From Actinoalloteichus hoggarensis (GTDB lineage: Bacteria > Actinomycetota > Actinomycetes > Mycobacteriales > Pseudonocardiaceae): a DNA stretch of 64,000 nucleotides. The notes under the pieces were generated by a model. It saw only the letters and a program-made list of their open reading frames with translations. It was not told the DNA's origin and searched no databases. Both the position numbers and the translations under genes were made by a program. The stretch is taken from contig NZ_CP022521.1 in the NCBI RefSeq assembly GCF_002234535.1, positions 4,960,001 through 5,024,000 on the forward strand. The letters run 5' to 3'. Shown one piece after another: positions 14,446-31,684 of this stretch (position 1 is the first letter of the stretch; every line of letters begins with the position of its first letter).

Positions 14446-15552
14446 TCAGAACGTCAAGGACCACCGTCGGTCGGCGGCGGGCGCGTCGATCCACACTTCG
14501 TGGGTTCCGTCCGGGGTGACGGTCAGCCCGTAGCGGTCCGGGGTCGGCCTGCCCGCCTCCTGCCACCAGGAGTGGGCGGCGGCGACCTCGTTCCACAGGC
14601 GACGCGGCCCGAGCTGGTGGACCGTCCACGGATCTCGTCCGCGTACGAGCGTGACCCGTGCCCATGATCGTGACCGCACGTCGTGCAGTTCGATCAGCCG
14701 GCGGTCGTCGGTGACGTCCTCCACGGTGAGGTAGCAGGCAGGCACCCGCAGGCCGATCGTGAACGCGGCACGGGCGAAGGCGACCATCTCGAACAGTTCC
14801 CGGCCGCTGTGTGCGGTCTGGGTCGTGTCGGCGTCGTTCACCTCGTCGGCGGTCGGTTCGAGGAAGTCCCGACGCTGGTGGCGTACCCGCATGAACGCCA
14901 GGTCGATTCCGCACCGGCCTGCGGCCGAACCGTCCTCGCGCACCTCCAGGCGGGTGAGCGCGTCGTCTCCGTAGTCGGTGCCCCACGGGGCGACGATCAC
15001 GCCGCCGGGCCGGGTCTGGTCGACCCACGACCGGGGGATCGTCCTGACGGACGCGGTGCAGACGACCCGGTCGTAGGGCGCGTCGGCCGCGTAGCCCTTG
15101 GTGCCGTCGCTGGTGACCACCAGCGGCGCGCAGCCGAGGGCGGCCAGCGCGCGGCGGGCGTCGTCGGCCACGGCCGGGTCCACTTCGACCGACACGACAT
15201 GTCCGCTCCTGCCCGCCCGCCGGGACAGCTCGGCGGCGTTCCACCCGGTTCCCGTCCCGATCTCCAGGACACGGTGTCCCTCGCGCACGTCCAGCGCGAT
15301 CAGCATGGCCGCGACCAACGATGGTCGGCTACAGGAGCTGGACGGCCGCCGCCCGGTCTCGCCTGGTCTCGTCGTGCCGTCGTCCACCTGGGTGATGATC
15401 GGTTCGTCTTCCTCGACCAGCGCACGCCAGCGCGGTTCGTCGTCGTCGCGCGACAGCGCGACGAACCCGTCGCCTGCCGGGTCGTCGACCCACACGACGG
15501 CCGGGATGAACGGCGCACGCGGCACGGCGAGTTGTTCGTGCCAGCCAGTCAC
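14446..15552 (-). CDS. PIMT-like O-methyltransferase, candidate imiditide-type RiPP maturase (module 1)
   Basis: 368 residues. Central SAM fold of the protein-L-isoaspartate methyltransferase class: Ser-rich loop PSSSCSRPSLVAAMLIALD, motif I VLEIGTGTGWNAAELS near residue 97, VVSVEVDPAVADDARRAL, and the post-I segment PYDRVVCTASVRTIPRSWVDQTRPGG. A C-terminal extension (HQLGPRRLWNEV..WW, then LTVTPDGTHEVWIDAP) is shared with the enzymes at 19481-20628 and 30518-31684 and is absent from housekeeping PIMT. GTG 15552 lies 12 bases after the stop of a 37-residue Asp-rich peptide. By analogy with imiditide loci the enzyme would methylate an Asp of that peptide, which then closes to an aspartimide. 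Family placement is firm; the RiPP role is inference. Confidence 0.85.
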   Translation of the reverse strand: MTGWHEQLAVPRAPFIPAVVWVDDPAGDGFVALSRDDDEPRWRALVEEDEPIITQVDDGTTRPGETGRRPSSSCSRPSLVAAMLIALDVREGHRVLEIGTGTGWNAAELSRRAGRSGHVVSVEVDPAVADDARRALAALGCAPLVVTSDGTKGYAADAPYDRVVCTASVRTIPRSWVDQTRPGGVIVAPWGTDYGDDALTRLEVREDGSAAGRCGIDLAFMRVRHQRRDFLEPTADEVNDADTTQTAHSGRELFEMVAFARAAFTIGLRVPACYLTVEDVTDDRRLIELHDVRSRSWARVTLVRGRDPWTVHQLGPRRLWNEVAAAHSWWQEAGRPTPDRYGLTVTPDGTHEVWIDAPAADRRWSLTF

Positions 15553-15564
15553 GACGGTGCCGCC

Positions 15565-15678
15565 CTACTTGTCGTCGTCGCCTTCGTGCTTGTTCTGGTC
15601 GTCCTTGCTGCCCCGGTTCTCCCACTTGTCCGGCTGCGCCTCGCCCTGACCGTCGCGGTCGACGTCCTTCTCACCCAT
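15565..15678 (-). CDS. Candidate precursor peptide of PIMT-like methyltransferase (module 1)
   Basis: 37 residues starting MGEKDVDRDGQGEAQ and ending NKHEGDDDK. No Cys, Ser or Thr pattern for lanthionines; it has nine Asp, including a DG near the N-terminus (D9-G10), and several Lys/Arg. It lies 12 bases upstream of the methyltransferase gene on the same strand. Its C-terminus and position resemble those of the peptide at 20629-20806 (EDKGEDK end abutting a homologous methyltransferase), the main reason to regard it as real. No strong Shine-Dalgarno site precedes the ATG. It is too short for most automatic gene finders. Confidence 0.55.
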   Translation of the reverse strand: MGEKDVDRDGQGEAQPDKWENRGSKDDQNKHEGDDDK

Positions 15679-15970
15679 CGTCGGGACCCCCGTCGTCTCG
15701 TGTGCCGCGGAATCTCCCACACGTCCTGACTACGGCACCCACGACCGAAACACAACTGTCAGCAACACGAGAATCACAAAGTGTGGTCGACTGGCGTTCA
15801 TTCGGCGTCTGCGGCCACAGCCCGTGCGGTGTGGGCCCGGGCCGTCGGGGCGGCGCTCCCGGACCACGCCGTTCCGGCAGCGGAGAAGCAGCCCGGCGCC
15901 CGCCGTCCCGGTCCGACGTCTCGCGCCGAGCGGCCGGATGAGCGCGGCGCGGACGCCGACCCGCCGACGA
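15679..15970. other. Intergenic region between precursor peptide 1 and tex terminator
   Basis: No gene seen. A relatively A+T-rich patch around 15730-15790 should contain the minus-strand promoter of the peptide/methyltransferase module. Confidence 0.4.
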
Positions 15971-16020
15971 CGGACGGGCCGCGCCGAGCCCGACCGAATC
16001 GGATCGACGCGGCCCGTCCG
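15971..16020 (-). terminator. Strong hairpin terminator downstream of tex
   Basis: Perfect 13-bp inverted repeat CGGACGGGCCGCG (15971-15983) and CGCGGCCCGTCCG (16008-16020) with a 24-nt loop begins 16 bases beyond the tex stop codon. No T-run; typical of actinomycetes. Confidence 0.6.
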
Positions 16021-16036
16021 GCACGCTCGCGGAGGA

Positions 16037-18469
16037 TCAGCGCCCGCCGAGCCCCTTGTCGAGCCCGGCCCGCCGCAGGGCGTCGGCCATCGCGCCGCCG
16101 CCGGAGCCGACGCGGTCTCGGTCGCGGCCGTTGCCCCCGCGACCGGCGTTGCCGCCGCCGCCCCCGCCGGACCGGCCGCGTCCACCGCCGCCGCGCCTGC
16201 CCTCGCCGCCGTTGCGGCCGCCGCCGGACTCCCGCCTGCCGTTGCCGCCCGAGCCGTTGCCGCCCCGCTTGTCGACCTCGTCCTGCAACCGCAGGGTCAG
16301 GGAGATCCGCTGCCGGGGCACGTCCACCGAGAGGACCTTGACCCGCACCACGTCGCCGGACTTGACGACCTCGCGGGGGTCGCTGACGAAGTCGTTCGAC
16401 ATCGCCGAGACGTGGACCAGCCCGTCCTGGTGGACGCCGACGTCGACGAACGCGCCGAAGGCCGCGACGTTGGTCACCACGCCCTCCAGGAGCATGCCCG
16501 GCTCCAGGTCGCCGATCTTGTCCACGCCCTCCTTGAAGGTGGCGGTGACGAAGGCGGGCCGAGGGTCACGACCCGGCTTCTCCAACTCCTTCAGGACGTC
16601 GGTGACCGTCGGCAGGCCGAACTTCTCGTCGACGAACTGCTCCGGGGAGAAGCCCGCGAGGACCCGCCCGTTGCCCAGCACGGCGCCGATCTCGGTCTTG
16701 CCCGCGTCGAGGATGCGGCGGACCAGCGGATACGCCTCCGGGTGAACGCTGGTGGTGTCGAGCGGATCGTCACCGCCGGAGATGCGCAGGAAGCCCGCGC
16801 ACTGTTCGAAGGCCTTCGGGCCGAGGCGGGCGACGTCCTTCAGCGCGGTGCGCGAGCGGAACGGCCCGTTGCCGTCGCGATGGGCGACGATGTTCTCCGC
16901 CAGGCCCTCCCCGATGCCGGACACCCTGGTGAGCAGCGGCGCCGACGCGGTGTTGACGTCGACGCCGACGGCGTTCACGCAGTCCTCCACCACGGCGTCC
17001 AGCGATCGGGACAGCCGGGCCTCGGCGAGGTCGTGCTGGTACTGCCCGACGCCGATGGACTTCGGGTCGATCTTGACCAGTTCGGCGAGGGGGTCCTGAA
17101 GCCGTCGCGCGATGGACACCGCGCCGCGGAGCGACACGTCCATGCCGGGGAGTTCCTGCGCGGCGTAGGCCGAGGCCGAGTACACCGAGGCGCCCGCCTC
17201 GGACACGACGGCCTTGGTCAGCTTCAGCTCGGGGTGCTTCGCGATCAGTTCGGCGGCGAGCTTGTCGGTCTCGCGCGAGGCCGTGCCGTTGCCGATGGCG
17301 ACGAGGTCCACGGCGTGGCGCTGCGCGAGGCGGGCCAGGACGGCCAGCGACTCGTCCCACTTCCTGGCGGGCACGTGCGGGTAGATCGTCTCCGTGGCGA
17401 CGACCTTGCCGGTGCCGTCGACGACGGCGACCTTCACTCCGGTGCGGAAGCCGGGGTCCAGTCCCATCGTCGCCCTGCTGCCCGCGGGCGCGGCGAGCAG
17501 CAGATCCCGCAGGTTGGCGGCGAACACGCGCACCGCCTCCTCCTCGGCCGCCTGGCGGAGCCGGGTCCGCAGGTCGATGCCGAGGTGGGTGAGGATGCGG
17601 GTCCGCCAGGCCCAGCGCACGGCGTCGCCCAGCCAGCGGTCGGCCGGTCGGCCCTGGTCGGCGATGCCGAAGCGGGCCGCGATCCGCGTCTCGTATTCGG
17701 TGGGGGCGGGCCGTGTTCCGGGCTGGGCCTCGCCGCCCTCCTGGGGTGCGGGGTCGACGACGAGGTCGAGGATCTCCTCCTTCTCGCCGCGGAACATCGC
17801 GAGGATGCGGTGGGAGGGCAGCCGGGTGAGCGGCTCGGAGAAGTCGAAGTAGTCGGAGAACTTGGCGCCCGCCTCCTCCTTGCCCTCGCGGACCCGGGCG
17901 GTGAGTCGACCCTGCGTCCACATCTGCTCGCGCAGTCCGCCGATGAGGTCGGCGTCCTCGGCGAAGCGCTCCACGAGGATCGAACGGGCGCCGTCCAGCG
18001 CGCCCTGGACGTCGGCGACGCCCTTGTCGGCGTCGACGAAGCCCGCCGCCTCGGCCTGCGGGTCGTGCGTCGGGTCCCCGAGCAGGCGGTCGGCCAGCGG
18101 TTCCAGCCCGGCTTCGCGGGCGATCTGCGCCTTGGTGCGCCGCTTGGGCTTGTACGGGAGGTAGACGTCCTCCAGCCGTGCCTTGGAGTCCGCCGCCATG
18201 ATGCTGGCCTCAAGCGCCTCGTCGAGCTTGCCCTGCGATCGGATGGAATCCAGGATCGCGGTGCGGCGCTCCTCCAGTTCACGCAGGTAGCGGAGCCGTT
18301 CCTCCAGGGTCCGCAGCTGCACGTCGTCGAGGGTGCCGGTCACCTCCTTGCGGTATCGGGCGATGAAGGGCACCGTCGCCCCGCCGTCGAGCAGCTCGAC
18401 CGCCGAGCGCACCTGGGTCTCCCGTACACCCAGCTCGTCGGCGATCTTGGAATGAATGGACGTCGTCAC
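16037..18469 (-). CDS. tex: Tex-family S1 RNA-binding transcription accessory protein
   Basis: 810 residues. Domain order is that of Tex: N-terminal helical region ([38 protein letters not shown]), YqgF/RNase H-like domain around residue 340 ([22 protein letters not shown]), a helix-hairpin-helix region ([40 protein letters not shown]) and an S1 domain ([32 protein letters not shown]). An additional Gly/Arg-rich RGG-like tail of about 75 residues follows and should bind nucleic acid. Tex associates with RNA polymerase and RNA. Start GTG 18469 gives the usual N-terminus; longer in-frame starts are unlikely. Confidence 0.95.
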
Positions 18470-18596
18470 TGTTAGGGCCCGCCTCCATTGCGTCACGGTC
18501 GCCGTGCATTCTGCCGCGCCACGGCCCGTCTCCGGTGCGCCGCCCGTCTGCGGCGCGTCCCGGTCGCGGGACCGGTCCACGAGGCCGATTCCGGGG

Positions 18597-18989
18597 TCAG
18601 TGCGCTTCGCCCGCGAGCAGCCAGCGGGTCACCGGGACTTCGACGAGCACGCTCGCGCCCGAGCCGTAGCCGGGTTCGGTGAGGTCCCAGCCGTCGTACT
18701 TCTCGGCGAAGGCCGCGACGATCTCGGGGTGGAGTTCGCGGTGCACCACGGCCCGGCCCTCGGCGACCAGCGGGGCGTCGCCGTCCGGCAGGGCCAGCGA
18801 CACGCGGGGTTCGGCGATCAGATTGCGGGTCTTGCGGTTGCCTTCCTGGGTGCTGATCCACCAGGTGTCGTCCCGGTAGACGAACCAGACGGGCGTGACA
18901 TGCGGTGATCCGTCGGGGCGGACCGTGCACAGCCAGGTGGTGCGCTCGGTGGTCAGGCGCTTCGACGCCGCATCGCTCAGTTCGGCCAT
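18597..18989 (-). CDS. PPOX-class F420/FMN-dependent flavin-binding protein
   Basis: 130 residues with the split-barrel fold of the pyridoxamine 5'-phosphate oxidase-like family: [32 protein letters not shown] then [18 protein letters not shown]. Such small single-domain proteins in actinomycetes usually bind F420 or FMN and act as reductases or oxidases of unknown substrates. ATG 18989 gives the expected N-terminus ([13 protein letters not shown]). It lies downstream of no obvious operon partner; tex follows on the same strand after about 130 bases. Confidence 0.85.
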
Positions 18990-19480
18990 CGCCCCATCCC
19001 ACCAGTACGGCGGGAAAGCCGGGCAGCCGGATTCGGTCGGACGAGGCGAAAGCGGGTGTGCGCGAGGACGGTCGCGGCGGCCGGGGCGCGGGGCGGGCGG
19101 GCCTGCCGTGGGGGCCTGCGGACTCGGGGCGTCGGCCTGCGGTGGTGTTTGTCCTGGGACGGTGTTTGTCCTGCGACGGTGTCGATCGACTACAGCGTCG
19201 ATCGGCGACGGCGTCGGCCTGCGACGGGGCCGGCCTGCGGTGGTCTCCGATCCGGCTGTGTCTTGTCCGCCTGCCGCGTCCCGGCACGGTCGGCGCCCTG
19301 GTCGGTCATCGCAGGCGGCGTGGCCATGACGTCCACCGTCCTGGTCCGACGAACCCGCGCGAACACCGTTCGACACTGTGGAAGGCGAGCCACGACTGGT
19401 CCGGAGCGGCGACGCCGCCGGTTCCCGCGTCGCGCTTCACGCCTGGCCCACCGCCGAGCGGGTCGGGATCGACGAGGAGA
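18990..19480. other. Intergenic region with short GTGTTTGTCCTG and GTCGATCG repeats
   Basis: No convincing gene. Between 19140 and 19220 the motif CGGTGTTTGTCCTG is repeated, followed by short CGACGGCGTCGG-type repeats, so the region resembles expanding low-complexity DNA. Confidence 0.4.
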
Positions 19481-20628
19481 TCACCGGCGCCGCTCGGCGG
19501 CCTGCGGCCACGTGCGCAGGACGGTCTCGGGGGTGTCGAGCCACACGGTCTGGGCATCGCCGGTGATGGTGAGGCCGAGCCGGTCGGGGCCGGGCCTGCC
19601 GTTCTCGTACCACCAGTCGTAGGCGTCGACGGCTTCGTCCCACAGCCGGCGTGGCCCGAGCTGACGGACGGTGAACGGGGCCGGGTCGGTCACGTCGGCG
19701 TCGAGCCGGGCATAGGAGCGGGTGGCCAGGTCGTCGAGCTCGAGAACGTGTCGGCCGGGACCGTTCGCGTCCCAGTCGACGACCAGCGCGACGCCGGGCA
19801 GCCGGGTACCGATGGCGAAGCGGCCCTTCTCCGGGTTGAGCATCATGTCCAGGTCCTTGCCACGGACATCGGTCGTGGTGACCTCGGCGGCGGCGACGGT
19901 GTCCGGATCGGGTTCCCAGCCGAAAAGGCTGCGCTGATGGCTTCGCAGCCGCAGGAACGCGAGGTTGCCTGCGAACCGCCCGGCCGCGGTGCCGTCGAGG
20001 TCGAGGGTGAGCAGCGCGCCGTTGCCGTAGTCGGTGCCCCACGGGGTCACCAGCCGCCCGCCGGGCCGCAGCTGGGCCGGCCACGCAGGCGGCACGGTCT
20101 CCCGCACCGACGCGGTCGCGATGATCCGGTCATACGGCGCGCCCGCAGGCCAACCCGCGGTACCGTCCGCGGTCACGACCTCCGCCGCGACGTCAGCCGC
20201 GGCGAGTGCCCGACGGGCGCTCTCGGCGAGACCGGGGTCGACCTCGATGGTGGTGACACGCCCGGCCGCGCCGACCCGATGCCGAAGCAGGGCGGCGTTC
20301 CACCCGGTTCCGGTGCCGATCTCCAACACCCGATCACCCGGCTGCGGGTCGAGAGCGGCGAGCATGTCCGCGACGATGCTCGGCTGCGAGACGAGCTGGA
20401 CGGGAAGTTCTCCCCACCGTCGCGGTGCGGGTCGCCGAGGTTGATCTGGGTGATCACCGGCGCGTTCGCCGCGACCGCGACATCCCAGGATTCGGGGTCG
20501 GTGTGGCGGGATACCGCGGTGAATCCCGGCCCGTCGGGGTCGTCGACCCAGATGGTGTCCGGGATGAACCCGGCCCTCGGGACCTGTTCGAACAGGATTC
20601 GCCAGGCCGGGGCGGTATCGGCGGTCAT
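19481..20628 (-). pseudogene. PIMT-like O-methyltransferase, frameshifted (module 2)
   Basis: Homologue of the enzyme at 14446-15552. The N-terminal part, from ATG 20628 (MTADTAPAWRILFEQVPRA, FIPDTIWVDDPDGPGF, ENFPSSSS), is in one frame. The rest, from SQPSIVADMLAALD through motif I VLEIGTGTGWNAALL to the C-terminal LTITGDAQTVWLDTP, is in another. The switch falls in the Ser-rich loop at about 20385-20402, where one base appears to be missing relative to the homologues. It may be a true pseudogene, a sequencing error, or slippage in the repetitive TCC/AGC/TCG stretch. The ATG directly abuts the stop of the upstream peptide (TAGATG). The shared C-terminal domain and gene order mark it as a second copy of the module. 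Confidence 0.75.
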
Positions 20629-20806
20629 CTACTTGTCCTCGCCCTTGTCCTCGAAAGTCGTGGCGGCCGCTACCGGAGTCGTCGACGTCCTTGGTCTTCG
20701 ACAGGTCGAAGGTGCCATGCCCGTCGCCTTCGGCCTCGTTCTCGTGCTCGGCCAGGCTGACCCGGCCGTCCCGCTCGTCAGTCGATGTCGCGTTGGACTC
20801 CTCCAT
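20629..20806 (-). pseudogene. Candidate precursor peptide with apparent frameshift (module 2)
   Basis: From ATG 20806 one frame encodes an acidic, clearly non-random peptide: MEESNATSTDERDGRVSLAE, then HENEAEGDGHG, TFDLSKTKDVDDSG. The reading frame that stops exactly at the methyltransferase start (TAG 20631-20629) ends TTFEDKGEDK, resembling the HEGDDDK end of the module 1 peptide. Start and stop are 178 nt apart, one base out of frame, so a single-base indel in the CGACTTTCGAGGAC stretch would join them. With the frameshift in the methyltransferase this suggests decay of the module or two local sequence errors. DG and DS dipeptides are present as possible aspartimide sites. Confidence 0.5.
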
Positions 20807-21550
20807 CCTGGGGAGCGCGGGTTGATCGGCGCAAGATCCCGAACGAGCGAAGAAGACTGGCCACCGCCACCAGCGTGGCGGCGTCGGATCGCGGGCGCGG
20901 CGCGATGCCGCCGGGGGTGTCGCGGTCGAAGACCCGCCCCCGATGTGGTCTTCCACGTCGCAGCCGGCGGCGTCGCGCAGCGGCCACGGCCGTGCCCGGC
21001 CGCCGATGGGGTGTCCGGTGCGCCGTATGGTCCGAGACCCGGACTCCGATCAGGACCGTCGGCCGCTGATCGACTGGGACGGCACCTGCCGTGGCCCCCG
21101 TGAACTGAACCTCGGCACCGGCGTCTCTGATCACCTCCCCGAACCCGAGGCGGACGGAAGCCGATTCCTGACCGTCTACGGCTACGACAAGCCCGGCCGG
21201 CCGCTGTCGCCTGACATCACCGAGCCGCACACTCTCGGCGCCTCCATCCGCCTCACCCTCGGCAGACCCGCCGCCCTCACCGAATCCCGCCACCACGTCC
21301 GGCCGTCTACCGCACCGGTGACAGGTCGGACCGCCGGCCCGCCCTTCCCTGAAGCGGCGCCGGTCCTCCCAGGCGGAGAATCCACGGTGTCGGCGAGGCC
21401 GGGTGTGGGCGAGCATCGAGGTGCGGCCTCCGCTCGCCGACGGTGCGATGCCGTCGGCGTCCGAGGCCTCCGCTCGTTCCTCGAACGACGGCGGGCCGGC
21501 CCGTCCCGCCGAGTCTCGCCGAGGGTTCGGGCGGGGCGTCGCCGACCGTG
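20807..21550. other. Gene-poor interval with possible coding remnant
   Basis: No complete gene. On the plus strand about 21045-21300 has codon bias like real genes and reads LIDWDGTCRGPRELNLGTG, then FLTVYGYDKPGRPLSPDI. No start, domain or homologue is recognised, so it may be an orphan gene remnant or chance. Confidence 0.3.
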
Positions 21551-22516: not shown

Positions 22517-22881
22517 CGGGCGGGCTCCCTTCTCCTGTCGCCGTCGCGGGCCGGGCGGCGGTCCGCAGTAGACCATGCGCAGGCGGGCGCCGGGCGGATG
22601 GTCGGGCGGGGTGCACGCCGGGGGTCGGGGCGGGTGGTCGGGCCGGGTGGTCGCATCGAGTGGTCGCGTCAGGTGGTCAGGCCGGCGAATCGCGCCGGAT
22701 GACCGCGCCGGGTGGTCAGGCCGGGTGGTCGCGCCCCGATGACCACGCCGGACGGTCATGCCCGATGACCACGCCGGACGACCACCCCGGATGGTCGGAC
22801 CGGGCGCGATATCCGGATGCGGGCGGGCGGCGGCGCGGCTACGGTTCCGGCGGAGTCGATCGCCGACGACGAGGAGCCAGG

Positions 22882-23799: not shown

Positions 23800-23920
23800 T
23801 CGGTTCCACGCGGCGCGTCGGTGCGGCGGGCGCCTGGCGGACGGGTACCGAACGGGCCGTCTCCCGTGGCCGTTCTCCGTCGCCCGGCGCCTGTCTTCCG
23901 TGGCCTGTCGCCCGACCGCT

Positions 23921-24154
23921 GTCGCCCGTGGCCCGTGGCCCGTGGCCCGTGGCCCGTGGCCCGTGGCCCGTCGCCCGTCGCCCGTCGCCCGTCGCCCGTC
24001 GCCCGTCGCCCGTCGCCCGTCGCCCGTCGCCCGTCGCCCGTCGCCCGTCGCCCGTCGCCCGTCGCCCGTCGCCCGTCATCGAGCATCGAGCATCGAGCAT
24101 CGAGCATCGAGCATCGAGCATCGAGCATCGAGCATCGAGCATCGAGCATGCCGC
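23921..24154. repeat. Composite heptanucleotide satellite (GTGGCCC, GTCGCCC, ATCGAGC)
   Basis: Three adjoining arrays, all with period 7: GTGGCCC x6 (23928-23969), GTCGCCC x15 (23970-24074) and ATCGAGC x11 (24078-24154), preceded by one GTCGCCC. The unit changes but the 7-bp phase is nearly kept across the boundaries, implying slippage expansion with successive unit replacement. Period 7 shifts frame at each unit, so the long frames through it on both strands are not genes. Confidence 0.95.
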
Positions 24155-24299
24155 TGCCGTCCGTATCGCAGCCGGGCGGGCAGCCTGCTGACCAATCGCC
24201 GAGACACCGGCCGCCGGGCCGGGCACCGCGAGGCCGGGTTCGCGGGCGGCGACGATCCGCACGCCGACCGACCGCACGGGCGGGGGCTGCGGGTGGGGG

Positions 24300-25103
24300 T
24301 CAGCGGCGTAGTCGGTTGAGCAGGGTGATCAGCACCGCCCGATCCCCCGGCGCCAACGACGTCCCCGCCAACCCCTCAGCCGTCGCCGCCCGCAACGTCT
24401 CCACCACCGCCTCCAGAAACTCGATCCCGAAATCCGTCAACGCCAACCGCTTCTCACCACCCCGACCCGCCACCACCACATAACCCCGATCCGCCAACCG
24501 CACCACACTGTGATCCAGACTCCGAGGCGGCAGATCCAACGCCGTGTTCGCGATCGCCTTCCGCACCGGATGCGGCGACCGCGCCAACAACCGCAACAAC
24601 CGAAAGTCATACACCGAAATCCCATGATCATGACGCAACACATCCGCGGGCCGCACCGTCCACCGCTGCACCGCCGCGATCAACGTCTCCCACATCACCC
24701 ACGGCTCCGCCGACACCGCACCCGCCCCCACCGCCACGTCCAGGGGAACCGGCCGAACCGACCGCCGGGCGCCTGCGGCGACCGGCACACCCGGCGACCT
24801 CGACGTCCGTGCGGACTTCGACCCCGCCGAGGACGTCCGCCCCGATGAGGGATTCGGCGACGCCGTGGTGTTCGGCCCCGCCGACGAATTCCGCTCCACC
24901 GAGGACTTCGGGTCCGATGAACGATTCACCGGCGCCGAACCGGTCGGCTTCGCCGACGAATTCCGTCCCACCGAGAGATTCGGCTCCGGCGAGGAATTCG
25001 GCTTTGATGCGGGAGCCGACTCCGGGGAACACGGTTCGGCGAACCGAGCACTCGGCGACGCCGGAACGGATCGGGGATGAACGGTCGGAGTGTTGTCGGA
25101 CAT
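24300..25103 (-). CDS. MarR-like winged-helix regulator with long disordered N-terminus
   Basis: 267 residues. The C-terminal 130 residues form a MarR-type domain: helices EPWVMWETLIAAVQRW, then VYDFRLLRLLARSPHPVRKAI, recognition-helix region LDLPPRSLDHSVVRLADRGYV and wing GRGGEKRLALTDFGIEFLE. The first 120 residues are low complexity, with repeated NSS, PNSS and SVGRNSS-like units. ATG 25103 (MSDNTPTVHP) has GAGGAG upstream; earlier starts run into repeat-derived sequence. The N-terminal repeats are echoed by direct repeats in the DNA. Target genes unknown. Confidence 0.65.
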   Translation of the reverse strand: MSDNTPTVHPRSVPASPSARFAEPCSPESAPASKPNSSPEPNLSVGRNSSAKPTGSAPVNRSSDPKSSVERNSSAGPNTTASPNPSSGRTSSAGSKSARTSRSPGVPVAAGARRSVRPVPLDVAVGAGAVSAEPWVMWETLIAAVQRWTVRPADVLRHDHGISVYDFRLLRLLARSPHPVRKAIANTALDLPPRSLDHSVVRLADRGYVVVAGRGGEKRLALTDFGIEFLEAVVETLRAATAEGLAGTSLAPGDRAVLITLLNRLRR

Positions 25104-25820
25104 GCGTTGGTTCTCTCCTCGAATCGATCGATGTCGGGGACCGACGGCGGGCGCCCCGCTGGTGTGCTCGTGCCGCCGGGGATCTCGGCGGTCCGGCGGT
25201 GTAGTCCGGCGGGACTCGGGTCGGCGGTGTCGGAATCGGGCGGGTTGGGCCGGGCGGGTCGGGCTGGGCGGGTCAGGCCGGGTGGTGTCGGAATCGGCGC
25301 GTCTGGCGCGGGGTGTCAGGCTCGGCGGGGTCGGGCCATGCGATGTCGGGCCGGCGGTGTCGGAATCGGCCCGTCCGGCGCGGGGTGTCAGGCTCGGCGG
25401 GGTGGGAATCAAGCGGTGCTGGACCCGGCGGTGCCGGAGTCACACGGCGTCGGGCTCGGCGGTGTCGGAATCAGCCGTGTTGGAATCAGCGGTGTCGGGA
25501 TCAGCGGTATCGGGATCAGCGGTATCGGGATCAGCGGTATCGGGATCAGCGGTATCGGGATCAGCGGTATCGGAATCAGCGGCGTCGGGATCAGCGGCGT
25601 CGGGCTCGGCGCACCGCGCGGCGCAGCCGGAGACCTGGCGATTTCCGGACGGGCCGGAGCTATCAGGGCAGGAAGGCAGCTCGGAACGACTCGGCGTCGG
25701 CTCCCCCGAGCCGACGGCCGGGGCGGGGCACGGGGTCAGGGTGCTGCCGAACGCCGGCGGTCGGTGTGCGGCGGCCGGGTCGGGTGTGCGGCAGCCGGAT
25801 CGACGCGGCCTGGGCGTCGT
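25104..25820. other. Repeat-rich intergenic region
   Basis: No convincing gene. It holds a long direct repeat (copies beginning at about 25284 and 25356, around 48 bp each, nearly identical) and the 15-bp tandem array at 25461-25610, and is dominated by GGTGTCGG/GGGATCAG-type sequence. Confidence 0.6.
25461..25610. repeat. Ten tandem copies of a 15-bp repeat
   Basis: Unit GGTATCGGGATCAGC, ten copies in exact 15-bp register. Units 4-7 are identical, while the outer units carry GGTGTC, GGCGTC or GGAATC variants, the pattern expected from internal expansion. On the plus strand it would read (GIGIS)n, but no start or ribosome-binding site supports translation. Confidence 0.95.
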
Positions 25821-26075
25821 TCATCTCGGGTCGTCGGTGTTCCCGGCGGGAACGGCCGCCCGCAGGACGGGCGGTGAGGGCGCGGCGTGCCCGAGGCACA
25901 GCGGGCAGCGTTGTTCGTCGTAGAAGCAGACCCGCATGGGGCGTCGGTTCATGGGTCGGTACTGGACGTCGGGCGCGCAGAGCGGGCGGATCGGGTCGGA
26001 GCCGTTCCAGTCGGCGGCGGCGAGATGGGTGTCGCCGGTGCGCACGGTGCGCACGAACCAGGCCCGCGCCGTCAT
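25821..26075 (-). CDS. Small Cys-motif (putative zinc-binding) protein
   Basis: 84 residues beginning MTARAWFVRTVRTGDTHLAAA. It has PLCAPDVQYRP then VCFYDEQRCPLCLG, a C-x(n)-C-x(n)-CPxC arrangement like the proteins at 8423, 9031 and 26072. Its ATG overlaps the upstream gene's stop as ATGA, making it the last of a chain of overlapping genes running from 28112. Likely a small zinc-ribbon protein; role unknown. Confidence 0.65.
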   Translation of the reverse strand: MTARAWFVRTVRTGDTHLAAADWNGSDPIRPLCAPDVQYRPMNRRPMRVCFYDEQRCPLCLGHAAPSPPVLRAAVPAGNTDDPR

Positions 26076-26632
26076 GGCTCGGCCGCCGTCGGTGCGGGAT
26101 CGGCCTGCGACCCGGCCTGTTCGCTCGCCGGGAAGCAGGCCGGGCAGCGGAGTAACCGCACCCATTCCTGTACCGACACCAGGGCCGCCCCGCACACCGC
26201 CACGTCAAGGGATCGGTAGGTGTCGTCCCGGCGGTGTTCCAGCCGCCGGAAGCGGCCCGCCCAGCGCTGCGGGGCGGCGGGCACGGGCAGCCGACCCCAG
26301 CCTCCCGAGAACGGGTCGTTCTCGGCAAGACGCTCGCGCAGCGGATTCACGGCGCGGGCCGTCTCAGAAGGACGCTCGCGTAGCGGAATCACCGCGTCGG
26401 CCGTCTCGGCGGAACTCTCGCGCAGCGGTATCACCGCGCAGGCCGTCGCGGCGAGACGCGGATACAGCAGGGTCACCACGCCGGCCGCCCCGGCGGGACG
26501 CTCGCGCAGCGGTATCACCACGCGAGCCGTGCCGGTGGGACGCGCACGCGGCGGGATCACCGCGCGGGCCGCCTCGGCGGGACGCTCGCGCTGCGGTGTC
26601 ACCAGGCCGACCGTCTCGGCGACGCCGCTCAT
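26072..26632 (-). CDS. Protein with seven 14-residue repeats and C-terminal Cys-motif domain
   Basis: 186 residues. Residues 9-106 are seven tandem 14-residue repeats with consensus (R/D)AVIPLRERPAETA (DNA 26315-26608, 42-bp unit). Then follows a domain RFRRLEHRRDDTYRSLDVAVCGAAL...CPACFPASE paralogous to the protein at 9031-9435. The repeat region is Arg/Pro-rich and amphipathic; it could be a binding surface or simply an expanded linker. ATG overlaps the preceding stop (ATGA) and the stop overlaps the next ATG. Function unknown; metal binding by the Cys set is likely. Confidence 0.65.
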   Translation of the reverse strand: MSGVAETVGLVTPQRERPAEAARAVIPPRARPTGTARVVIPLRERPAGAAGVVTLLYPRLAATACAVIPLRESSAETADAVIPLRERPSETARAVNPLRERLAENDPFSGGWGRLPVPAAPQRWAGRFRRLEHRRDDTYRSLDVAVCGAALVSVQEWVRLLRCPACFPASEQAGSQADPAPTAAEP

Positions 26633-27273
26633 GTGTCCACCGTCCGCATTCGTCCGATGAGGACGAACGGCCGGACCCGCGCGGCGAGGGCCGCCCGAGG
26701 TACCCGTGCCGCACCACTCCGGCCGCGCGGACCGGGGCCGCACATGCCCTGGCCGCGCGGCGGTTCGCCGGGCACGGCCCGGACGTGTCGTTCCTGCCGG
26801 TGGCCGATCGCAGCGGGCCGGGTAGCGCGCAGGGCCGGAGCAGACAGGGCCGCAACACGCCGCGCCGCCGGACGCAGGGCCGCAGCGCCCAGGGCCGCAG
26901 CGCGCAGGGCGGGCAGGGCCGCACCGCACCCGGCCCGCCGACGCGCGCCCCTGACGCGGTCGGCAGCGACGCGAGCCGGTGTGCCGGACCCGCTTGGAGA
27001 CGGAGACGGCGCCGACGAGGCCAGCGCCGACGTGGAAGCCAGAGCCGAACCCGAGCCCGACGCCGAAACCAGAGCCGAGGCCCGAGCCGACGCCGAAGCC
27101 CGCGCCGAGCCCGAGGCCACCTGTCCGAGCAGATCGCGCGGGATGCGGACGAGTCGGGAGAGCAGCCGGCCGGCGACGGCGACCCCGGCCCGCCGACGCC
27201 GGCGAGCGCCCAGACCCGGCGGCGACGCTGTCGCCCGTCGCGGCCTACGACGGTTGGCGCGCTGCCCGGTCAC
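26629..27273 (-). CDS. Low-complexity Ala/Arg/Ser-rich protein, unknown
   Basis: 214 residues from GTG 27273, which overlaps the upstream stop as GTGA. The middle is a Ser/Ala repeat (SARASASARASALVSASGSGSA is approximate in pattern), followed by Arg/Ala-rich sequence and a C-terminus ending ARVRPFVLIGRMRTVDT. No recognisable domain. The call rests on the 4-nt overlaps at both ends and on position in the chain; the sequence alone could be spurious. Confidence 0.45.
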   Translation of the reverse strand: MTGQRANRRRPRRATASPPGLGARRRRRAGVAVAGRLLSRLVRIPRDLLGQVASGSARASASARASALVSASGSGSALASTSALASSAPSPSPSGSGTPARVAADRVRGARRRAGCGAALPALRAAALGAAALRPAARRVAALSAPALRATRPAAIGHRQERHVRAVPGEPPRGQGMCGPGPRGRSGAARVPRAALAARVRPFVLIGRMRTVDT

Positions 27274-27668
27274 GTCAGCGTCCCCGAGATCGCCCGTGTC
27301 CAGCCGGGCGGCGGCCCGTCCGGCGGCGCGGCGGGCCGGGTCCGGGCCGCCGAACGGCACTGGTCGGCGACCACCGCGAGCCGCCGCCGCACCGCAGCAC
27401 GCCGGGCCCGCAACCGCCGCCGCGCCTCGGCGTCGCCGTCGGCTGCGGCCGCCGACCGCACGGCGGGTTTCGGGTCACGCGCCGACGTCGAGCGTCGTGC
27501 CTCGGCGGCCCGCTCGTCGGCGCGACGCAGCCGAGCCCAGTCCGCCCGCGAGGGCGCCCGCCGAGCCGGATGCGCGGTGCGCCACCGGCGCCAGACGACG
27601 TCCAGCACCGGCAGGCCGATGCAGAGGGCGAGGAGCACGGCGAACAGCCCGTCGGCCACGGTGGTCAT
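27270..27668 (-). CDS. Small membrane-anchored basic protein
   Basis: 132 residues. The N-terminus MTTVADGLFAVLLALCIGLPVLDVVW is one transmembrane helix or an uncleaved signal anchor, followed by a highly Arg-rich cytoplasmic segment (RRWRTAHPARRAPSRADWARLRRAD, helical RRRLRARRAAVRRRL). ATG 27668 overlaps the upstream stop and its stop overlaps the next GTG. It suggests that the gene chain has a membrane component. No family recognised. Confidence 0.6.
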   Translation of the reverse strand: MTTVADGLFAVLLALCIGLPVLDVVWRRWRTAHPARRAPSRADWARLRRADERAAEARRSTSARDPKPAVRSAAAADGDAEARRRLRARRAAVRRRLAVVADQCRSAARTRPAAPPDGPPPGWTRAISGTLT

Positions 27669-27913
27669 GAGTCACCGCCGACGGCACCCGAGCACGCGGC
27701 GTTCGGCGAAGCCAGAACGAGCGGAACGGCGGCGACCGGAACAGCAGCGGGCAGGACAGCGGCGAGCGGAACAGCGGCGGGCGGAACAGCGGCGGGCGGA
27801 ACAGCGGCCGGGAGAGCCCCGACCCGTTCGCGCCGGCCGAAGCGGGAGTCCGGGACGAGCGGAGTTCTCGTGATTCCGGTGTCCCGCCGAGGATCAGCCA
27901 ATGCCGTCGTCAT
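27665..27913 (-). CDS. Small Pro/Ala/Val-repeat protein
   Basis: 82 residues. After MTTALADPRRDTGITRTPLVPDSRFGRRE comes a short hydrophobic repeat (AAVPPAAVPPAAVPL and variants, six-residue period) and a C-terminus with a single Cys. ATG 27913 has GAGG five bases upstream, and the stop overlaps the next ATG (ATGA). Could be a Pro/Ala-rich spacer or membrane-associated peptide; function unknown. Confidence 0.5.
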   Translation of the reverse strand: MTTALADPRRDTGITRTPLVPDSRFGRRERVGALPAAVPPAAVPPAAVPLAAVLPAAVPVAAVPLVLASPNAACSGAVGGDS

Positions 27914-28112
27914 CACACCTCGATTCGCGCGTAGTCGGTGCGGGGGCGACGGATCGACGCCCCCGATCGGGCTTGAAGGAACAGTCGGTCTCATGGGCAT
28001 CGGAGGTCGGAAAGTCCACGTCCTCCCGCCCACACCAACAACAGGTCCGCGCCAGCCGCCCGCCGCGCGCACGCTCGGTCTCGCCCTGCCGAGGGCGCAT
28101 CCAGGGCTTCAT
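27894..28112 (-). CDS. Small protein with CCWCGREDVDF zinc-finger-like motif
   Basis: 72 residues. The core LARTCCWCGREDVDFPTSDAHETDC holds CxxC plus His and Cys, consistent with a small zinc finger. Its stop lies inside the start of the next gene (20-nt overlap). No clear Shine-Dalgarno site; a start further in is possible. It is the promoter-proximal gene of the minus-strand chain, divergent from the XRE regulator at 28472. Confidence 0.5.
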   Translation of the reverse strand: MKPWMRPRQGETERARGGRLARTCCWCGREDVDFPTSDAHETDCSFKPDRGRRSVAPAPTTRESRCDDDGIG

Positions 28113-28471
28113 CGGGCGTCCGTGAGATGGCGGTTTGGCGGTCCGCTGGAGTGGTTCTTAAGTAGCGCCGAGCCACATGCTGCGACGCCGGGCAAGCAAA
28201 CGATGGGATCAGGGCGGTCACCGAGTCCAGGATGACGGGCTCCCGCCGAAGCAAGACGAGCGACAACGTTCCCCTCTGCCACCATCGGGCACAACCTGGC
28301 CACGAATGGATCAACGAACCCGGAGATGAACGCGGCACAACTTGAGGCAATGAACATGAATATTCTCCCGATTCTTGCAGCTCAGCCCCGTTGCCAACAC
28401 TTTATCCACAACGAACTTTTGAGGCAACATTGGGTTGTCAATCGCCGGGACGCCGCCCTAGAATTCATTGC

Positions 28472-29323
28472 ATGGCTGGCAACACTGGCAATCCGGCAAC
28501 CAGGGCACTAGGCGACGAAATTGCCGCACGGCGAGAAGAAGTCGGTATGAGCGCGCGGCAACTTGCCCTCCGATCGGGGTTCCATCCGAGCACCGTCTCC
28601 AGGATCGAGTCAGGGAAACGCACACCGACACCGACGGTCCTGGCGACCCTTCTAGCAACGCTCGGCGTGGTAGGTGAGGACCGCGACCGACTCCTACGGA
28701 TGGTCGACACCGCCGCTGCACCGCAGTGGGCCGCGACCGGGGCGGGTCTCCCCCATCAGCTCACAGCGCTGCTGCGGTGGGAACGACGCGCTACCCGTGT
28801 GATGGAGGTGCAACCGCTCTTGATTCCCGGACTGCTCCAGACCTCCGAGTACGCCGAGGAGGTGATGCGGGTTTCCGGCAACGCGGAAGAGTCCATCGAG
28901 GCGATGGTCGCCGTCAGGCTCGGACGTCAGAAACTCCTCGACAAAGGCTTGAAGTTCGAGGTGATCATCGACGAGTCAGTGCTGATGCGACCGCTCGGCG
29001 GTGCGGCGGCCATGGCCGATCAGTGCGGGCACCTGTCGCAGGAGGCCGGAAGGAAGAACGTCATCGTGCGTGTTGTACCGGTCACACGGTCGAACATCGC
29101 GATCAACGGCCCCTTCTCGACGTTTGAGTTCGCCGAAGATGACCCGATCGTCCATCTGGAGCACCTGAGCAGCGGCTTGTTCGTAGACGACACATCCGAG
29201 GTCAACGTGTTCTTCCGAGCGATCGATAGTCTCCGTGAGGTCGCGATGAGCCCACAGGATTCGGTCAGGCTCATCGCGACCTATCAGGACCAGCACCGCC
29301 AGACAGCAGTCACTGAGAGGTAG
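28472..29323 (+). CDS. XRE-family regulator with DUF5753 domain (Scr1-like)
   Basis: 283 residues. N-terminal XRE helix-turn-helix (ARREEVGMSARQLALRSGFH, STVSRIESGKRTPTPTVLATLLATLG) followed by the DUF5753 sensory domain (QPLLIPGLLQTSEYAEEVMR, FEVIIDESVLMRPLGG, IVRVVPVTRSNIAINGPF). Actinomycetes carry dozens of such regulators, typically followed by a small DUF397 partner; in Streptomyces coelicolor the Scr1/Scr2 pair influences antibiotic production. Here two DUF397 genes follow directly. ATG 28472 gives the usual length. The upstream region is unusually A+T-rich for the window (28320-28470) and should carry divergent promoters for this gene and the minus-strand small-gene chain. Confidence 0.93.
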   Translation: MAGNTGNPATRALGDEIAARREEVGMSARQLALRSGFHPSTVSRIESGKRTPTPTVLATLLATLGVVGEDRDRLLRMVDTAAAPQWAATGAGLPHQLTALLRWERRATRVMEVQPLLIPGLLQTSEYAEEVMRVSGNAEESIEAMVAVRLGRQKLLDKGLKFEVIIDESVLMRPLGGAAAMADQCGHLSQEAGRKNVIVRVVPVTRSNIAINGPFSTFEFAEDDPIVHLEHLSSGLFVDDTSEVNVFFRAIDSLREVAMSPQDSVRLIATYQDQHRQTAVTER

Positions 29324-29329
29324 CGCACG

Positions 29330-29518
29330 ATGACGGTACTCCACAATTGGAAGAAGAGCAGTCGATCCGGCGGGCAGAGCCAGTGTGTCGAGATCGGCCA
29401 GGCCCCCGGCCTCGTCGGCATCCGGGACACCAAGAACCGCCACGGCGGCACCCTCCTCGTCACCCACGCGGCCTTCGACGCACTCCTCACCTCCATCCGC
29501 ACCGACCGACTCCGCTGA
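29330..29518 (+). CDS. DUF397 protein, copy 1
   Basis: 62 residues: N-terminal WKKSSRSGGQSQCVEIGQAPG and C-terminal IRDTKNRHGGTLLVTHAAFDALL are the DUF397 signature (W.KSS.S...G.CVE.A, V.VRDSK.P.G..L.F). Begins six bases after the regulator stop; co-transcribed and probably binds it. Its last 43 codons are nearly identical in DNA to those of copy 2, unlike the first part. Confidence 0.92.
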   Translation: MTVLHNWKKSSRSGGQSQCVEIGQAPGLVGIRDTKNRHGGTLLVTHAAFDALLTSIRTDRLR

Positions 29519-29608
29519 CCCCGTGGCGGCCACCGCGTCAGCCGGTGGCCGCCACCCCGACGGCAACCCGACCATGTGAGGCACCACCCGACGAATCGAG
29601 ACAGCACC

Positions 29609-29797
29609 ATGACCAAGCTGCGCAACTGGAAGAAGTCCTCGCGGAGCGGCGCAGAGTCGTCGTGCGTCGAGATCGGCCAGGCCCCCGGCCTTGTCGGCAT
29701 CCGCGACACCAAGAACCGCCACGGCGGCACCCTCCTCGTCACCCACGCGGCCTTCGACGCGCTCCTCACCTCCATCCGCGCCGACCGACTCCGCTGA
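29609..29797 (+). CDS. DUF397 protein, copy 2
   Basis: 62 residues, MTKLRNWKKSSRSGAESSCVEIG then the same C-terminus as copy 1 with a single substitution (T/A). It follows copy 1 by 90 bases. ATG 29609 aligns with the start of copy 1; an upstream ATG at 29576 would add 11 residues without homology. Tandem duplication with conversion of the 3' two thirds is the simplest origin. Confidence 0.9.
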   Translation: MTKLRNWKKSSRSGAESSCVEIGQAPGLVGIRDTKNRHGGTLLVTHAAFDALLTSIRADRLR

Positions 29798-29914
29798 CGA
29801 CATCAACGGCGACCCGCCGGCCCGTGGGCCGATTTCTCGATGGCCGTCGATCGTCGAGATCTCGCCGAGGCGCTGTCTGTCTCGCCGAGGCCTGTCTACC
29901 TCGCCGACCGCCGA

Positions 29915-29945
29915 GCGCCAGTCGGTGTGAAACGCCGACTGGCGC
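29915..29945 (+). terminator. Hairpin terminator after XRE-DUF397 operon
   Basis: Perfect 11-bp arms GCGCCAGTCGG (29915-29925) and CCGACTGGCGC (29935-29945) with a 9-nt A-containing loop, 118 bases after the second DUF397 stop. No T-run. Confidence 0.5.
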
Positions 29946-30032
29946 CGCAGGCACCTCGCACCGTGGCCGCCCCGTCGCCGCTGCGAACGCCCGTTGATCA
30001 ACAAGCGTTCACCGGCCACTCCCTCGACGAGA

Positions 30033-30330
30033 AGCGGGCACTTCTTCAGCGTGTACTGGAACGCCAACGCGTTCGGGCTCGTCACCGAAGCGAAAGACGG
30101 CGACATCGTCGCGCGGTTCGAGACGCTCTACCCCGTCGCGACGAGTCAGGAACCGGGCGAGATCCGCCCGCCTGGGCCGTCGGACCGGAACAGGACACGG
30201 CTGTCGTCCGTCAGACCTGTTTCGCGCTCATGGAGCAACAGACCGGCATGGAGTTTGATCCCTACTGGCTCGGGCGACGATATCCGACGTATCGGATTCC
30301 TGACGCGCACACGCTGTACGGGGATGTCGA
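30033..30330 (+). pseudogene. DUF6461 remnant (frameshifted, 5' truncated)
   Basis: One frame (30033 to about 30165) reads SGHFFSVYWNANAFGLVTE, then DGDIVARFETLYP, and a second frame (about 30165-30330) reads QTCFALMEQQTGMEFDPYWLG. Together they match the middle and end of DUF6461 proteins, common in actinomycetes, which have ..NVNA..RF....DG....FEPL.. and later FALAERLTGVRLTP. The N-terminal half is missing and the two parts are out of frame, so it is a decayed gene. It lies between the DUF397 operon and the third methyltransferase module. Confidence 0.6.
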
Positions 30331-30419
30331 GAACGCCGACGCGGTGGACGGGAGTTTTGACCCGACCGGAGAGCCCTGGAGCACGGACCGGACGGGCCTG
30401 GACAGACACCCGGCGCCCC

Positions 30420-30521
30420 ATGGCGAGAAAGGGCGGTCCACCCGACGCCGACAGCACCAGCCCCGCGCCCGGCTCCATGGTCGGCGCGATGGCACGCCTA
30501 CTGACGAAAGGGCTCACGTGA
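30420..30521 (+). CDS. Candidate precursor peptide of PIMT-like methyltransferase (module 3)
   Basis: 33 residues, MARKGGPPDADSTSPAPGSM ending VGAMARLLTKGLT. Its TGA overlaps the GTG of the methyltransferase (GTGA), implying coupled translation. Two Asp residues (D9, D11, the second in a DS dipeptide) are possible modification sites, and basic residues flank the peptide. No good ribosome-binding site is visible and the same frame is open further upstream, so the start is uncertain; it may be the end of a longer peptide or chance. Confidence 0.4.
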   Translation: MARKGGPPDADSTSPAPGSMVGAMARLLTKGLT

Positions 30522-31684
30522 CGGTCCCAGCATGGCCGCGTCTCGCCGACGACCTGGTGAACGAACTCGTGGCACAGGGCAAGGTCGCCGCGCCGGAATG
30601 GCAGGCCGCGTTCCGAGCGGTTCCCCGGCACGAGTTCGTGTCGCGGTTCTACGAGCAGCGCGACGACCGACGATGGCAGGCGGTCACCGCCGACTCGGAC
30701 CCGGAACACTGGTTGACGCGGATCTACACGAATCGGCCGCTGGTGACCCGGCTCGGCACCCTGCATCACGGCGGCGTGGGGCCGACCTCGTCATCCTCGT
30801 CGCCCGCGCTCATGGCGCGAATGCTGGAGGCACTCGACATCCACGATGGACATCGGGTGTGCGAGATCGGCACGGGGACCGGGTGGAACTACGCCCTGCT
30901 CGCGCATCGCCTCGGTGCCGAGAACGTGTTCTCCGTGGATCTGGAGGACGAACTCGTCGAACAGGCCGCCGCCGGTCTTCGCCGCGTCGGCCACGAACCG
31001 AACCTCGCGCGGGCCGACGGCGTCGCGGGCTGGCCCGGCGGCGGGCCGTTCGACCGGTTCATCGCCACCTGCGCCGTGAGCCGCATACCGACGGCATGGC
31101 TCGAACAGACTCGCGACGGCGGGATCATCCTCGCGGACCTCAAGATCGGGACCAGCACGGGGAACCTCGTCCGCCTGCGCCGGACCGCGCACGGCGCCGA
31201 GGGCACCTTCCTGGACGGGTACTCGGCGTTCATGCTCATGCGCGGCGAGGCGCACCCACCGGTCACCGGGTATCCGGAGCGGGATCGCGGTCGGGCACGC
31301 CGCAGGCACACGGCGGTGCGGGAGGAACGGCCATGGGAATCCCCGGTGTGGTGGTTCCTCGCCTGTCTGTCGATGCCCTCGGGCGTGCGCTTCGGCTACA
31401 CCCTGCATCCGGAGACGGGCCGCCCGGACGCCGTGTCGTTGAGCTGCCCCGACGGCTCGTGGTGCGAGGTCGCTCTCGACGTCTCCCGCGACGGTCGGCA
31501 GGTGTGGGAGGGCGGCCCCGCGGCACTGTGGTCCGCCGTCGAACGGAGTCACGAGATCTGGACAGCACGCGGCAGGCCGACCTGGTCGCGGCTCGGGCTC
31601 ACCGTGACCGGCCGGACCCATGTGGTGTGGATCGACGATCCCGCCGGACCGGCCTGGACGCTCCACGACCCGCACCCCACGTAG
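30518..31684 (+). CDS. PIMT-like O-methyltransferase, candidate RiPP maturase (module 3)
   Basis: 388 residues from GTG 30518. The N-terminus (WPRLADDLVNELVAQGKVA, WQAAFRAVPRHEFVSRFY, then IYTNRPLVTRLG) is the helical lid of the PIMT fold as found in peptide-maturase methyltransferases (TgmC-like). Then come the Ser loop PTSSSSSPALMARMLEALD, motif I VCEIGTGTGWNYALLA near residue 125, and PFDRFIATCAVSRIP. The C-terminal domain (RLGLTVTGRTHVVWIDDPAG) is shared with modules 1 and 2. No ATP-grasp peptide ligase is adjacent, which argues against a graspetide cluster and for an imiditide-like two-gene system. Complete and apparently functional. Confidence 0.85.
   Translation: MTVPAWPRLADDLVNELVAQGKVAAPEWQAAFRAVPRHEFVSRFYEQRDDRRWQAVTADSDPEHWLTRIYTNRPLVTRLGTLHHGGVGPTSSSSSPALMARMLEALDIHDGHRVCEIGTGTGWNYALLAHRLGAENVFSVDLEDELVEQAAAGLRRVGHEPNLARADGVAGWPGGGPFDRFIATCAVSRIPTAWLEQTRDGGIILADLKIGTSTGNLVRLRRTAHGAEGTFLDGYSAFMLMRGEAHPPVTGYPERDRGRARRRHTAVREERPWESPVWWFLACLSMPSGVRFGYTLHPETGRPDAVSLSCPDGSWCEVALDVSRDGRQVWEGGPAALWSAVERSHEIWTARGRPTWSRLGLTVTGRTHVVWIDDPAGPAWTLHDPHPT

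Follow-up and report, generated by a model that had tools for sequence, protein, structure and literature searches.

Imiditides, or type I pamtides, are ribosomally synthesized and post-translationally modified peptides (RiPPs) made by two-gene systems such as NmaA–NmaM and SpaA–SpaM, in which a short precursor accompanies a homologue of protein-L-isoaspartate methyltransferase (PIMT); they were reportedly described by Cao et al. in 2023 and Lee et al. in 2023. According to PMC10787088, the enzymes SpaM and FcaM act on their precursors by methylating an Asp, whose ester closes to an aspartimide and then opens, with isoaspartate (isoAsp) shown for FcaA; PMC13001092 counts 1414 type I pamtides. 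Here we analyse a window of 64,000 nucleotides (nt) from Actinoalloteichus hoggarensis (bases 4960001–5024000 of contig NZ_CP022521.1, the single contig of a 6.6-Mb genome), in which three PIMT-like methyltransferases, MT1, MT2 and MT3, lie within 17 kb. The original prediction had read each of them, together with a short open reading frame (ORF) in front, as one of three imiditide-type modules. We consider it highly probable that module 1 is a two-gene operon resembling those of imiditides/type I pamtides, that module 2 derives from a sister lineage and has decayed, and that MT3 is a graspetide-type methyltransferase without an ATP-grasp partner. Two-gene systems of this sort are already known, and module 1 extends that kind rather than revealing a new one. 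Its two genes, in window positions, are:

15565–15678 (stop codon included), minus strand: module 1 precursor peptide of 37 amino acids (aa), MGEKDVDRDGQGEAQPDKWENRGSKDDQNKHEGDDDK, conserved upstream of MT1-clade methyltransferases and with third-codon-position bias
14446–15552, minus strand: MT1, the module 1 methyltransferase, PAMT-like (PIMT core plus C-terminal domain), with a GTG start; PF01135, TIGR04188 at 308 bits, AlphaFold model

The stop codon of the 37-aa ORF lies 12 nt ahead of the GTG start of MT1, the spacing originally proposed, and the ORF is conserved. A search of 200 family genomes with MT1 gave 23 matches below 1e-100, each in a different genome, and partial copies also occur in G097 and G198. 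Upstream of these loci a common peptide can be read, MGKRDxDRDGQGxPQPDKWENWGSKDDGNKHE. A profile (A3) built from 17 of the peptides and searched against the same 200 genomes found 25 places in 23 of them, and 24 of the 25 stand in front of an MT1-like methyltransferase on the same strand, at a distance of 2–71 nt as measured between match ends. The 71-nt gap belongs to G001 (L028), because the peptide there is broken into two frames. Seventeen of the 25 matches are the profile's own rows; seven of the other eight adjoin a methyltransferase (in G038, G119, G133, G079, G198, G001 and a second copy in G097), three of them identical to a row. The exception among the 25 is a weak match elsewhere in the A. 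hoggarensis genome (G000:C1:3851603-3852089, E 1e-5), whose frame failed the coding filter and which was set aside; it stands about 200 nt before a weak PCMT match (E 2e-5) on the same strand. Viewed from the enzymes, 24 of the 25 methyltransferase places in the pairing check carry the module 1 peptide and one (G029, L030) carries a different peptide. The original prediction had named homologues lacking a conserved upstream peptide as evidence against it; module 1 withstood this check, with the peptide adjacent in 24 of 25 cases.

Pairwise comparison of codons 2–32 of 19 distinct peptide genes gave 825, 716 and 2162 differences at codon positions 1, 2 and 3; this concentration at the third position is as expected for a translated, constrained frame. 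Carriers include Tamaricihabitans, Herbihabitans, Actinopolyspora, Thermocrispum, Saccharopolyspora and Streptoalloteichus, the sampled family including Tamaricihabitans (Pseudonocardiaceae in NCBI) as well as Actinopolyspora (NCBI: Actinopolysporaceae). A class-wide draw of 394 genomes returned a single peptide match, in the genome that holds the window. At methyltransferase identities of 0.6–0.7, median peptide identity is 0.70 for module 1 (121 pairs), so that peptide and enzyme are conserved to about the same degree, unlike three of four comparison sets, in groups drawn by the analyst: 0.48 (20 pairs) for other family members and 0.43 (45 pairs) and 0.57 (3 pairs) for two further sets. Slow peptide change is thus uncommon but not unique, because one Streptomyces set reaches 0.69 (130 pairs) in the same identity range.

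The module 1 neighbours scanned in the window are ordinary, among them a Cys/Met pyridoxal-phosphate enzyme, an alpha/beta hydrolase, Tex and a PNPOx-like protein. Six window neighbours were compared with 19 related loci (E 1e-15) and none recurred, so the pair seems, from these comparisons, to move as a unit. Six of the 19 relatives (L131, L132, L133, L137, L138 and L201, two of them from one contig) share a divergent upstream protein, which by eye we take to be DUF6879; its gene is perhaps a regulator of the pair. No ATP-grasp match was found in 38 MT1-clade loci (22 distinct places, many with 1.5-kb flanks), where lanthionine and lasso enzymes were not sought.

The A. hoggarensis genome has 17 PCMT matches, of which eight are strong, and three of these eight lie inside the window. 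All three enzymes have the PIMT core, as originally predicted (PF01135, E 2e-31 for MT1, 4e-30 for the longer MT2 piece and 2e-28 for MT3), and the same three carry the S-adenosylmethionine (SAM) motif EIGTGTG. They also carry W-x3-G-x-P (WxxxGxP), which PMC13001092 reports for lasso, graspetide and imiditide PIMT homologues. The C-terminal motif R-x-G-L-T-x-T-x(5-6)-V-W-x-D-x-P is likewise present in all three; the originally given spacing, RxGLTxTxxxxxVWxDxP, fits two of them, the spacer being five residues in MT2 and MT3 but six in MT1. Scores against TIGR04188 are 308 bits for MT1, 229 for the longer MT2 piece and 359 for MT3, all below the cut-off of 380.

An AlphaFold model of MT1 (predicted local distance difference test score (pLDDT) of 93) finds its best match in the Protein Data Bank in the Thermotoga maritima PIMT (1dl5), which like MT1 joins a PIMT core to a C-terminal extension and is 20% identical to it. 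The 1dl5 enzyme is not known to have a paired peptide. PMC13001092 names it among PIMTs, with a C-terminal extension similar to those discussed there. Our computations cover the gene pairing, its conservation, the predicted fold and the clade; what reaction takes place, which Asp is the target and how the product is used we infer, with the chemistry taken from the literature. MT1, as a PIMT descendant with an added C-terminal domain, would bind the linear 37-aa peptide and methylate one Asp side chain with SAM; the ester would close to an aspartimide, and hydrolysis to isoAsp may follow. In the 17 aligned peptides D5, D9 and D27 are Asp without exception, and D9 precedes Gly in all 17 (DRDGQG). 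Glu is never found at D5, D7, D9, D26, D27 or D34, whereas 6 of the 17 have it at D17. Asp-Gly is the pair most prone to aspartimide formation. Since D9 is invariant and always stands before Gly in that pair, it is most likely the residue that MT1 would methylate, with D27 as the second candidate.

Module 1 shares with the imiditides the two-gene layout of a short precursor and a PIMT homologue with a C-terminal domain and WxxxGxP, actinomycete hosts (Streptomyces and Actinomadura are among the relatives) and a linear, Gly- and Asp-rich peptide with charged ends. Beside a type I precursor, which has about 45 aa, is rich in Gly, Pro and Asp and holds a conserved Asp near Gly or Pro, the match is mixed: Gly at 14.2%, Asp at 21.2% and the invariant D9-G10 agree, Pro at 5.0% does not, and the window copy has 37 aa. 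Unlike the described systems, its peptides are low in Pro, acidic and marked by an N-terminal DxDxDG; they usually have two Trp, of which the window copy has one. Type II pamtides, or cysimiditides, have in common with module 1 a PAMT and a short precursor, but the module 1 peptide lacks Cys and any CxxCxGxG motif, of which type II precursors have two. Our search of the literature on two carrier genera and RiPPs, which did not extend to the supplementary lists of published pamtides and imiditides, found nothing on the module 1 pair.

Several observations weigh against placing module 1 among the imiditides. Pro makes up 5.0% of its peptides, against 16.8% reported for type I precursors in PMC10787088, and the peptide has a net charge of −6, against the strong positive charge of which PMC13001092 speaks. 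The likeness to NmaA and SpaA rests on published descriptions rather than sequence alignment, and the literature search gave no biochemical test of module 1 peptides. Taken over its whole chain, the MT1 model matches 1dl5 only modestly (TM score 0.51 by query length, root-mean-square deviation 8.5), with the domains placed differently. A charge swap, in which an acidic peptide would be read by a basic C-terminal domain of the methyltransferase, was tried and rejected (Spearman 0.04; contrasts r 0.10, p 0.29) in 113 loci, those left of 148 with a picked ORF after 18 were dropped by hand as not precursor-like, along with 13 duplicates and 4 fragments or others. Peptide charge was weakly related to the N-terminal part of the methyltransferase (Spearman −0.27, p 0.004; contrasts r −0.19, p 0.04, without multiple-test correction).

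Shared motifs extend to wider relatives. Starting from 159 loci, 11 had no ORF and 148 had one; dropping 18 by hand and merging duplicates left 114 peptides. G(x)[KR]H occurs in 84 of the 114, where shuffles average 9.3, and DG[QHK] in 75, where they give 23.4, which suggests, as far as motif counts can indicate, that the two are shared recognition elements; hand-dropping favours these counts and related sequences inflate them. The pattern Dx[DNS]xDG is found in 24 of the 114 peptides, most of them close kin, against 4.8 in shuffles, and loops of this shape bind calcium in other proteins. We regard it as a long shot that the N-terminal Dx[DNS]xDG loop of a separate, slowly evolving imiditide branch would fold round a metal ion and present D9 to MT1, in a manner resembling the role of zinc in type II pamtides, and that the product would be a conserved physiological peptide rather than a diversified antibiotic.

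Module 2 retains the same arrangement in broken form:

20654–20752, minus strand: module 2 precursor remnant (AEHENEAEGDGHGTFDLSKTKDVDDSGSGRHD...), which changes frame before its stop; profile A5, E 5.2e-11
20392–20628, minus strand: N-terminal piece of MT2; 80% identical to L149 (Amycolatopsis rubida) and 71% to L076
19481–20389, minus strand: core and C-terminal piece of MT2, in a different frame; 85% identical to L149 over 293 aa; PF01135, E 4e-30

The A5 profile was built from eight relatives, none from the window, and recovered the window's module 2 peptide. Of its ten places, eight adjoin a methyltransferase, six of these being profile rows. In the remaining two, G070 (a broken peptide) and G137 (where by eye a methyltransferase start follows the peptide), tblastn at E 1e-3 found no methyltransferase in either stretch. 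The original prediction had recognized the acidic, frameshifted peptide but missed that MT2 itself is also broken, splitting into two frames near 20390 (20628–20392 and 20389–19481). At 20753–20755 the window has CTG, where the four relatives checked have ATG (L149 and L113) or GTG (L076 and L033). In the unbroken relative from A. rubida both genes are open, and the methyltransferase frame of 377 codons follows directly behind the peptide stop. No ATP-grasp match was found in 17 MT2-related loci (12 distinct). By these sequence comparisons module 2 belongs to a sister lineage of the same imiditide kind, and we read it as a decayed pair, the reading frames of both precursor and enzyme being not intact in the published sequence.

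The third methyltransferase stands in a different setting:

28391–29323, plus strand: helix-turn-helix regulator with DUF5753, upstream of MT3; PF19054, E 8e-49
29330–29518, plus strand: DUF397 small protein; PF04149, E 7e-18
29609–29797, plus strand: second DUF397 small protein; PF04149, E 2e-17
30420–30521, plus strand: 33-aa ORF, the originally predicted module 3 precursor, not supported; overlaps the MT3 start by 4 nt
30518–31684, plus strand: MT3, an orphan methyltransferase of the graspetide-associated clade; TIGR04188 at 359 bits over positions 1–361 of 363, cut-off 380; tree

We placed the enzymes in a tree of 119 methyltransferases (121 rows minus two fragments), built by a quick method with SH-aLRT (Shimodaira–Hasegawa-like approximate likelihood ratio test) as the only support measure. 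A 32-row clade (support 100) holds both MT3 and its broken relative L040, and 26 of the other 30 rows of this clade have an ATP-grasp gene upstream. MT1 and MT2 belong to a separate 81-row clade (support 99); three of the 60 loci L069–L128 have an ATP-grasp gene (L117, L118 and L125), and all three lie outside it. On its tree position MT3 is a graspetide-pathway enzyme, and it matches the model of graspetide-associated methyltransferases (TIGR04188; AmdM, SsfM) over nearly its whole length. Unlike these it scores under the curated cut-off and has no ATP-grasp partner in the window, where a search with three ATP-grasp proteins of the same genome gave a best E of 0.84, in agreement with the original prediction on this point. 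The 33-aa ORF does overlap MT3 by 4 nt as claimed, but conservation and family matches are absent: two open frames over its region had no match at E 0.01 in the other loci compared, and the longer frame that holds it belongs to no family in Pfam or NCBIfam. A DUF6461 gene remnant suspected by eye upstream of MT3 was likewise dropped, being unsupported by Pfam (two frames), NCBIfam (one frame) or similarity to the loci compared. DUF397 proteins are ordinary partners of DUF5753-type regulators, and the region before MT3 is such an ordinary set. Module 3 is therefore, on clade and conservation, not an imiditide candidate. The short ORF that was predicted before each methyltransferase exceeds chance in modules 1 and 2, and there is no evidence that it does in module 3. 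Support for the imiditide assignment is good in the case of module 1 and of the ancestor from which module 2 derives; the assignment fails for module 3, whose methyltransferase the tree assigns to the graspetide pathway.

That the three are diversified copies of one imiditide system, as originally suggested, and arose by local duplication agrees with their homology and their closeness, but the tree makes this scarcely credible. The nearest kin of MT1 are L010–L012 and those of MT2 are L076 and L033, with L149, outside the tree, nearer still to MT2 by identity; because these kin are in other genomes, MT1 and MT2 are evidently not recent local duplicates. MT3 sits in the other clade with full support, and its identity to the longer MT2 piece is only 33%. 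It is also very improbable that MT1 serves ordinary isoaspartyl repair and that the peptide in front of it is a small protein of another role that merely travels with it. MT1 does have the PIMT core and fold, and the eight strong PCMT matches of the genome are all 363–388 aa from the aligned start, with no plain short repair enzyme among those eight; yet such an enzyme would not be expected to pair so tightly, one to one, with a peptide, to carry WxxxGxP, which PMC13001092 reports for RiPP-associated PIMTs, or to show so patchy a spread (peptide in 23 of 200 family and 1 of 394 class genomes), unlike housekeeping repair.

For MT3 and module 2 the alternatives deserve more weight. MT3 could act in trans on the graspetide of one of the three other ATP-grasp clusters of the genome (L004, L007 or L008), which we hold to be unlikely. 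It is open over its full length with intact motifs and a short end branch (0.075), and three other loci of the genome pair an ATP-grasp gene with a methyltransferase; each of those clusters, however, already has its own methyltransferase, the nearest relative of MT3 (L040, in G144) is broken, and methyltransferases of such pathways are highly specific according to PMC13001092. Somewhat less unlikely, though still doubtful, is that the living strain has an intact module 2 and that the frame changes arose as errors in sequencing. The high identity of the longer MT2 piece to its unbroken relative would fit such errors, but there are two separate frame changes and a CTG for a start codon within about 400 nt, and broken copies occur in other genomes too (L028, L040, G198 and G070). 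We prefer decay for module 2 and, for MT3, a graspetide-type enzyme that has no partner in the window.

Further PIMT homologues were seen along the way. In the A. hoggarensis genome, L004, L007 and L008 have the look of graspetide clusters, each with an ATP-grasp gene immediately before its methyltransferase, and the small upstream frames of L005 resemble, by eye, lasso-peptide B1/B2 parts. A further homologue (L003, G000:C1:3813014-3813598) has neither ATP-grasp nor a recognizable precursor, and by eye a CobW-kind GTPase and a helix-turn-helix regulator lie nearby. In G144 the nearest relative of MT3 (L040; L123:7458-8986) is broken into frames, and an apparent partial duplicate of itself stands in front of it. 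RiPP-type PIMT homologues are very numerous in some small, partly draft genomes (48 in the 3.7-Mb G179, 23 in G071, 15 in G137, 14 in G153 and 12 in G002, fragments and graspetide types counted). In G179, nine of ten loci (L032, L069, L070, L072, L074, L075, L081, L082, L084 and L088) have very different precursor-like ORFs upstream. Elsewhere in the window, a pair of 7-bp tandem arrays that adjoin each other (23877–24149), one with about 29 copies of CCGTCGC and the other with 10 perfect ones of CATCGAG, lies directly behind a gene of the virginiamycin-B-lyase family (PF24684, 22216–23799), and there are further arrays of a 15-bp unit (25445–25604, 10.7 copies, 90% matches) and a 42-bp unit (26320–26621, 7.2 copies).

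Closely spaced PIMT homologues may thus belong to different RiPP classes, and proximity alone therefore cannot be read as duplication. PMC13001092 names the biological role of aspartimide-bearing RiPPs as an open problem. The module 1 precursor, which over several genera changes no faster than its enzyme and stands beside the methyltransferase in 24 of 25 places, would be a better starting point for knock-out than faster-changing precursors.

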